From contig CP072660.1 of NCBI GenBank assembly GCA_029637525.1, positions 124,001 to 188,000 on the forward strand: a stretch of DNA of 64,000 nt, read 5' to 3'. The notes below the pieces were generated by a model. It was not told the origin of the DNA and did not search any database. It saw only the letters and a list, made by a program, of their open reading frames with translations. Origin of the DNA: Desulfurococcaceae archaeon MEX13E-LK6-19 (lineage in GTDB: Archaea; Thermoproteota; Thermoprotei_A; Sulfolobales; Desulfurococcaceae). Positions within the stretch are counted from its first letter, which is position 1, and the number at the start of each line of letters is the position of its first letter. The position numbers and the translations under genes are program-made. Shown here piece by piece: positions 12,891 through 45,628 of this stretch.

Positions 12891-13043
12891 GCCGCCGTAG
12901 CTCAGCCGGTAGAACTCCGTATACTCCGATGATACGGAGTATCGGAGTATTGGCAGCGCCGCCCTGGTACTCCCTAGTACTCTAGGGTACTCCGGGGACC
13001 GGAGAGGCGGAGGTCCCGGGTTCGAATCCCGGCGGCGGCTCCA
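12891..13043 (+). tRNA. tRNA-Thr(GGU) with two introns, CCA encoded
   Basis: Removing two inserts gives a canonical 73-base tRNA plus CCA. Acceptor is GCCGCCG with CGGCGGC, D stem GCTC with GAGC, anticodon stem CCGCC with GGCGG around loop CTGGTAA, and T arm CCGGG-TTCGAAT-CCCGG. Intron 2 (12970-13004, 35 bases) lies at 37/38 and has an exact bulge-helix-bulge: helix CTGG with CCGG, 3-base bulges TA|C and AG|A, inner helix TCCC with GGGA. Intron 1 (about 12914-12955, 42 bases) splits the D stem after position 22 or 23, and most of it folds into a long hairpin of ACTCCG/CGGAGT repeats. Its splice motif is relaxed. The anticodon GGT marks threonine. Confidence 0.93.
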
Positions 13044-39298: not shown

Positions 39299-39349
39299 GG
39301 ATGAAGAGAGCCCGGGTCTGACACGTGATGAACGCGCTCTTCACGGACT
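39299..39349 (+). ncRNA. Candidate C/D box sRNA upstream of nadE
   Basis: C ATGAAGA (39301-39307, one mismatch), 10-base guide GAGCCCGGGT, D' CTGA (39318-39321), 3-base spacer, C' GTGATGA (39325-39331), 12-base guide and a degenerate D CGGA (39344-39347). The D'/C' spacing is ideal. TGAAGAGAG at the 5' end can also pair with CTCTTCA at the 3' side, so a plain hairpin is an alternative. It lies 44 bases upstream of nadE, so it may share or replace the gene's leader. Confidence 0.45.
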
Positions 39350-45064: not shown

Positions 45065-45159
45065 TGGTGGACCGGCCGGGATTCGAACCCGGGACCTCCG
45101 CCTATCCCTGGCTTCGAACCGTGCGAGGGCGGCGCTCTTCCAGGCTGAGCTACCGGCCC
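45065..45159 (-). tRNA. tRNA-Ala(CGC) with an anticodon-loop intron, CCA encoded
   Basis: After removing an 18-base insert at 37/38 (45104-45121), the minus strand gives a canonical 74-base tRNA plus CCA. The acceptor GGGCCGG pairs with CCGGTCC and contains G3-U70, the alanine identity pair. The anticodon loop is CTCGCAA with anticodon CGC. The intron folds by itself as a small hairpin (GGTT with AGCC), but the flanking bulge-helix-bulge has a G-A mismatch in the central helix, so its splice motif is relaxed. Confidence 0.95.
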
Positions 45160-45211: not shown

Positions 45212-45223
45212 CTATTTATATAG
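45212..45223 (-). promoter_or_regulatory. TATA box for tRNA-Ala
   Basis: On the minus strand TATATAAAT is the core, about 55 bases before the mature 5' end of the tRNA. It is a typical archaeal tRNA promoter position with a leader. The same AT tract could act in the plus direction for the downstream sRNA. Confidence 0.4.
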
Positions 45224-45277: not shown

Positions 45278-45354
45278 GGGGCCCGTGAGAAGATGTAGGC
45301 GACGGGCGGCCTGACAAGTGATGATCCATTGTAGCATTAATTCTCACGGGCCCC
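45278..45354 (+). ncRNA. C/D-type sRNA candidate with 14-bp closing stem, 16S C1402 guide
   Basis: GGGGCCCGTGAGAA (45278-45291) pairs perfectly with TTCTCACGGGCCCC (45341-45354). The 49-base loop has D' CTGA (45311-45314), spacer CAA and C' GTGATGA (45318-45324), an exact archaeal K-loop. The 11 bases GCGACGGGCGG before D' are complementary to the 16S segment CCGCCCGTC (E. coli 1399-1407) and, in crenarchaea as I recall, two bases further. The base five positions upstream of D' pairs with C1402, a universally 2'-O-methylated position in bacteria. Terminal C and D boxes are degenerate, so this may be a single-guide form closed by the long stem. Confidence 0.7.
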
Positions 45355-45365
45355 GAATATATGGT

Positions 45366-45441
45366 ATGCCTATGAGGAGCAGCGGATAAACTGAATACCA
45401 AGAATACTTAATCACGTGATGAAACTTGCTTTCTGAGGCAC
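45366..45441 (+). ncRNA. C/D box sRNA candidate with terminal stem
   Basis: TGCC (45367-45370) pairs with GGCA (45437-45440). C ATGAGGA (45372-45378, one mismatch), 12-base guide GCAGCGGATAAA, D' CTGA (45391-45394), spacer, C' GTGATGA (45416-45422), 10-base guide AACTTGCTTT and D CTGA (45433-45436) follow in the canonical order. Having both boxes, two guides of the right length and a closing stem makes this one of the best candidates in the window. Targets were not identified by eye. Confidence 0.65.
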
Positions 45442-45526: not shown

Positions 45527-45628
45527 GGGCCCGTAGCTCAGCCTGGTGGAGCGCCCGTTGGCCGAAAAGAGTGAGGCCAGGCGAAGCTGATAACCGGGAG
45601 GTCGGGGGTTCAAATCCCCCCGGGCCCA
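45527..45628 (+). tRNA. tRNA-Ile(GAU) with an intron at 30/31, no encoded CCA
   Basis: A 28-base insert (45558-45585) interrupts the anticodon stem between positions 30 and 31. Without it the molecule is a perfect 74-base tRNA: GGGCCCG/CGGGCCC acceptor, GCTC/GAGC D stem, CCCGG-CTGATAA-CCGGG anticodon arm, GGGGG-TTCAAAT-CCCCC T arm. Bulge-helix-bulge is exact: central helix CGCC with GGCG, bulges CG|T and AA|G, inner helix TGGCC with GGCCA. After A73 the DNA reads CTT, so CCA must be added. Confidence 0.94.

Follow-up and report, generated by a model that had tools for sequence, protein, structure and literature searches.

The RNA encoded at 45278-45354 on the forward strand of the window (the whole stretch of 64,000 nucleotides analysed, from Desulfurococcaceae archaeon MEX13E-LK6-19) is, judged by sequence comparison, a genuine archaeal box C/D sRNA with two guides and with canonical RNAs among its orthologs. 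Its function appears to be the ordinary one of a C/D sRNA; its closing helix is long and its terminal K-turn non-standard. It belongs to an old and widespread guide-RNA family. Its D' guide most likely directs methylation of C1402, the universally conserved nucleotide at the decoding site of 16S rRNA. The proposal as a whole, a double-guide sRNA with L7Ae at the K-loop and at a non-standard terminal K-turn and with methylation of C1402, is probably correct; we infer transcription, protein binding, methylation and compensation by the stem, and the parts of the RNA, its pairing, its orthology and the covariation of stem and of guide with target can be read off the alignments.

Architecture and distribution of the RNA

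A perfect 14-bp inverted repeat encloses a 49-nt loop that holds CTGA-CAA-GTGATGA. The original prediction had given this repeat, the motif and their coordinates, and all were exact on re-reading. The 77-nt RNA has a folding energy of -39.9 kcal/mol (z = -5.5), and none of 200 shuffles was equally stable. The gene is flanked by two tRNA genes, a tRNA-Ala on the reverse strand (45065-45159) and a tRNA with an intron on the forward strand (45527-45628), in a source genome that consists of one contig of 1,910,795 bases and contains a fibrillarin gene. A TATA-like box (TTTATATA, 45215-45222, forward strand) lies upstream and, by its letters, is a possible promoter.

All parts of the RNA are on the forward strand. 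The 5' arm of the closing stem (45278-45291), which is the C-helix of the terminal K-turn, pairs with the 3' arm (45341-45354), and the two arms covary across orthologs. The stem thus juxtaposes boxes C and D, as in other archaeal box C/D sRNAs. It is followed by the 3-nt bulge G-A-U (45292-45294), the N, R1 and U2 of box C, in a register set by canonical orthologs, and by a degenerate box C, AUGUAGG (45293-45299; consensus RUGAUGA), placed by ortholog alignment. Box D' (CUGA, 45311-45314) and box C' (GUGAUGA, 45318-45324) are both conserved and, with the loop CAA between them, make the K-loop of D' (CUGA) and C' (RUGAUGA) that is expected of an archaeal C/D sRNA, here at 45311-45324. Ortholog alignment likewise places a degenerate box D, UUAA (45337-45340; consensus CUGA), whose A45340 is the partner of G45295 in a retained G.A pair. 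The original prediction had described the terminal boxes as degenerate, which is accurate as a description, and they become readable once the orthologs are aligned.

A covariance model of the RNA matched 58 of 398 genomes of the phylum, among them members of other classes with canonical boxes (f23, f29, f59); its weakest matches (f12, f13) have no clear terminal motif and may not be orthologs. A DNA search gave a match in 27 of 61 genomes, and a pattern search in 63 of the 214 genomes of the order, some of which are not true orthologs. Named carriers belong to the Desulfurococcales, e.g. Staphylothermus and Thermogladius. The covariance-model and pattern matches include RNAs with canonical RUGAUGA/CUGA boxes, and both guides are conserved across most of the order.

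Guides and their targets in 16S rRNA

Guides of 12 and 10 nt stand upstream of D' and D, within the 10-12 nt usual for rRNA guides of archaeal C/D sRNAs, and both have N+5 targets in 16S rRNA. The D' guide (45298-45309, GGCGACGGGCGG) pairs with the 16S of the organism itself (L001) over 12 nt, with 11 Watson-Crick pairs and one GU, at the target CCGCCCGUCGCU. With box D' at 45311, guide position -5 faces the fourth nucleotide of the target, which in the numbering of E. coli K-12 rrsB is C1402. The original prediction had proposed a match to the decoding segment of at least 9 and likely 11 bases, pointing to C1402; alignment to the organism's own 16S extends the match and bears out the target nucleotide. 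Shuffled D' guides reached a run of at least 12 nt, GU allowed, in ~2% of trials, so that the 16S match taken alone is moderate evidence.

The second guide (45326-45335, CCAUUGUAGC), which was absent from the original prediction, pairs with the organism's own 16S at GCUACAAUGG over 10 of 10 positions, all Watson-Crick; counted from box D at 45337, its N+5 target is A1236 (E. coli numbering, rrsB). A shuffled D guide reached an equal or longer run, GU allowed, in ~12% of trials. Because the runs of the two guides are matched by ~2% and ~12% of shuffles, pairing alone is not decisive.

The target of the D' guide is further indicated by a compensatory change. The 16S of G065 reads CACUGCCCGUC, with CUGCCC where others have CCGCCC, and the guide of its ortholog is GAUGGGCAG where others read GAYGGGCGG, which compensates the change in the 16S. 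Other members of f6, the family of G065, share this guide change, as read from their guides; the 16S was read for G065. Two orthologs from other classes (L238, L242) carry GATGGACGG, which would suit a 16S reading CCGUCCGUC, as seen from the guides. Taken together, conservation, the compensatory change of guide and target and the covariation of the stem place the sRNA far beyond chance. Since the D'/C' K-loop is perfect, guidance to C1402 does not depend on the question of the terminal K-turn alone.

The two sides of the RNA differ in constraint. In f1, the Desulfurococcaceae, the spacing between C' and box D is variable, with D guides of 11-15 nt; in f2 the D guide is 12 nt. In one genus (g6; L023, L024, L027, L059, L061, L063, L064, L065) the A1236 guide has been replaced by several unrelated D guides and the C1402 guide has been kept. 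The drift in spacing and this replacement indicate weaker constraint on the D side in f1, in line with its worn terminal motif.

Equivalents of C1402 are ribose-methylated in P. abyssi (Cm1376, the position of E. coli m4Cm1402), yeast and human (PMC7005279). In Arabidopsis the equivalent nucleotide is methylated by a C/D snoRNP (PMC11542601), and in bacteria C1402 is modified by the protein enzymes RsmI and RsmH (PMC7694415). Position 1402 is unmentioned in the main text of PMC4644070. The RNA described here, whose family is conserved across one crenarchaeal order and in some further classes, would connect a guide RNA to a nucleotide ribose-methylated in bacteria, archaea and eukaryotes. Bacteria use proteins to place this methyl group; plants and, on present sequence evidence, these archaea use C/D guides. 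The U43-type C/D snoRNA for Arabidopsis 18S Cm1645, the equivalent of E. coli 1402 (PMC11542601), has the equivalent target nucleotide; the likeness drawn here is one of target.

Terminal K-turn and closing stem

Canonical orthologs of the form stem|NRU|GA...CUGA|stem share a single register with stem|GAU|GU...UUAA|stem here. Examples are GGACC-GAT-GAGG...CTGA-GGTCC in G075 and GGGC-TAT-GAAG...CCGA-GCCC in f11, against stem-GAU-GUAG...UUAA-stem in this RNA. Alignment A1 shows an invariant A and G in AUG and a U conserved to at least 90%, so the box C uridine of the K-turn internal loop, U45294, is present. Box C position 6 and box D position 1 covary as a pair when the sequences are read in the bulged register (27 of 39 versus 17.8 shuffled, p = 0.0016), with p = 0.02 among non-canonical sequences and p = 0.08, not significant, in f1 alone. 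The shared register and this covariation argue that the scaffold of the terminal K-turn has been kept, and the K-turn likely forms. The idea in the original prediction that the long stem replaces the K-turn was not upheld, since in the ortholog register neither the bulge nor the uridine of box C nor the first sheared G.A pair has been lost.

In a simple standard K-turn, G.A and A.G pairs come after a bulge of 3 nt. Here the bulge and G45295.A45340 are present and the second sheared pair is U45296-A45339, which places the motif in the non-standard class at best; the sRNA was therefore filed as a variant of the archaeal box C/D sRNA. The second sheared pair was found in 1 of 35 f1 sequences, in 0 of 9 in f3 and f4, and in 32 of 35 elsewhere; among the three that lack it there, L240 at least was misplaced by the parser. 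Because the terminal-motif parser required U, G and A at three sites, counts at these are non-independent; alignment A1 is independent. Loss of the second sheared pair is, as judged from these sequences, a lineage feature of f1 that is common to f3 and f4. No covariation of the 2b.2n pair was found within f1, and we claim no selection for the U-A pair.

L7Ae is described as recognising box C/D through the terminal stem, the box C uridine and two sheared pairs, all of them needed (PMC7994747); the same paper cites Kuhn et al. for a requirement of two sheared GA pairs for L7Ae binding to C/D RNA. Of these features the RNA has the stem, the uridine and a single sheared pair. A K-turn that L7Ae binds still forms with A.A at 2b.2n, and non-standard K-turns usually hold A at 2b and vary 2n (PMC3985660), whereas 2b is U here. 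The closest comparison is Kt-23 of Thelohania solenopsae (PMC3985660), which is bound by L7Ae and has in common with this motif A for G at 2n, the first G.A and the 3-nt bulge. It differs in that Kt-23 retains A at 2b, where this RNA has U and a possible U-A Watson-Crick pair.

The inner stem pairs by Watson-Crick rules in 132 of 148 cells across orthologs (best of 5000 shuffles, 91), and its covariation score, 0.698, falls to 0.181 on shuffling and to no more than 0.32 when the register is slid by one. In f1 the closing stem is longer, the genus median being 9 versus 4.2 bp (p = 1.5e-5); non-canonical forms as a whole also have longer stems (6.0 versus 4.2 bp, p = 0.01). Genera were treated as independent in both comparisons, which makes the p-values optimistic. 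Stem lengthening appears as a lineage feature of the Desulfurococcaceae. These statistics fit, without proving, a long helix that would support, and so compensate for, the worn K-turn. In f3 and f4 (L069, L070, L072, L010) the stem has a bulge of 3 nt (AAA/AGA) or larger, 4-5 bp outside the K-turn, and then another helix.

In comparison with archaeal double-guide box C/D sRNAs (RUGAUGA/CUGA, with K-turn and K-loop), the RNA shares two guides of ~12 nt, the exact D'/C' K-loop, N+5 targets in 16S and orthologs with fully canonical boxes. It differs in its box C (AUGUAGG), its box D (UUAA), the U-A in place of the second sheared terminal pair, and a closing stem of 14 bp where other families have ~4 bp. 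In the proposed mechanism L7Ae would bind at two places: the D'/C' K-loop, which is intact, and the non-standard terminal K-turn, where binding would be weaker or assisted by the long stem. This terminal K-turn would consist of a 14-bp stem I, the GAU bulge, G45295.A45340 and then U-A, A-U and G.U pairs. Nop5 and fibrillarin would join after L7Ae. The D' guide would pair with the decoding segment of 16S, and fibrillarin would 2'-O-methylate the P-site nucleotide C1402; the D guide would pair with 16S 1233-1242, with predicted methylation of A1236 or help in folding of the 3' domain. Terminal K-turns in the family range from intact to worn, and closing stems from 2 to 16 bp, a natural series on which the extent of terminal K-turn needed by a C/D particle could be tested.

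Alternative readings and neighbouring loci

The erosion of the terminal motif could go further than we propose. If the terminal K-turn were functionally lost, the helix would close the ends without L7Ae, and the RNP would be one-sided, with L7Ae at the K-loop and catalysis at the D' guide (C1402) only. The second sheared pair is gone in 34 of 35 f1 members and in few elsewhere, stems are longer in f1 (9 versus 4.2 bp, p = 1.5e-5, uncorrected for phylogeny), the C'-box D spacing drifts there, and g6 swaps the A1236 guide and retains that for C1402, all of which speak for this reading. Full loss should, however, allow drift, and the bulge, the box C uridine, G.A and C6-D1 are retained; one f1 member (L019) still has the full tandem GA/AG. 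We regard this reading as unlikely; were it true, the guide RNA of the Desulfurococcaceae would be a natural one-sided C/D RNP in which a long Watson-Crick helix closes the particle and C1402 is still served. A continuous helix, in which GATG would face the four box D nucleotides without any bulge, is far less probable. The stem does abut GATG in nearly all f1 members, but the same trinucleotide is the NRU bulge of canonical orthologs, and C6-D1 covaries in the bulged register. The nucleotide before AUG varies in alignment A1 (G, A or T; A or T in L004, L067, L070 and L194), a variation incompatible with a continuous helix in which that G takes part in a sheared pair. This arrangement, with the stem on GATG opposite NNAA, was dropped when searches with CCC-GATGA...CTGA-GGG returned canonical sRNAs in which GAT is the NRU bulge, and in view of the C6-D1 covariation.

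Other readings concern what the RNA does. It might act mainly as a folding chaperone of 16S that joins the 1236 and 1402 segments, with methylation secondary. Its two guides target distant parts of one rRNA, the box D position is loose in f1, and such sRNAs have been put forward as chaperones (PMC4644070); on the D' side, however, both the spacing and the N+5 position (C1402) are constant, and Cm is found at the C1402 site in P. abyssi and eukaryotes (PMC7005279), leaving this reading distinctly improbable. A chance inverted repeat, or another RNA element with no guide function, might be argued from the 12-nt run in ~2% of guide shuffles and from an Rfam search of 45278-45354 that found no family above threshold, but against the conservation, the covariation and the compensatory change of guide and target it is hardly credible.

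Beside the double-guide sRNA, a second C/D sRNA lies directly downstream at 45365-45441, with box C ATGAGGA (45372-45378), the guide GCAGCGGATAAA, D' CTGA at 45391, C' GTGATGA at 45416 and D CTGA at 45433. No good rRNA match was found for its guides, the conserved one included. It is kept beside the first sRNA in nearly all Desulfurococcaceae. A survey of the genome for the K-loop pattern gave 18 matches versus 20 for the reversed-pattern control, which is not above background, and no count of C/D sRNAs was drawn from the pattern. A further K-loop, CTGA-CAC-GTGATGA, occurs in the window at 39318-39331 and possibly marks another sRNA. At 12891-13040 the window has a tRNA gene match of 150 bases, hence with large insertions (introns) within it.
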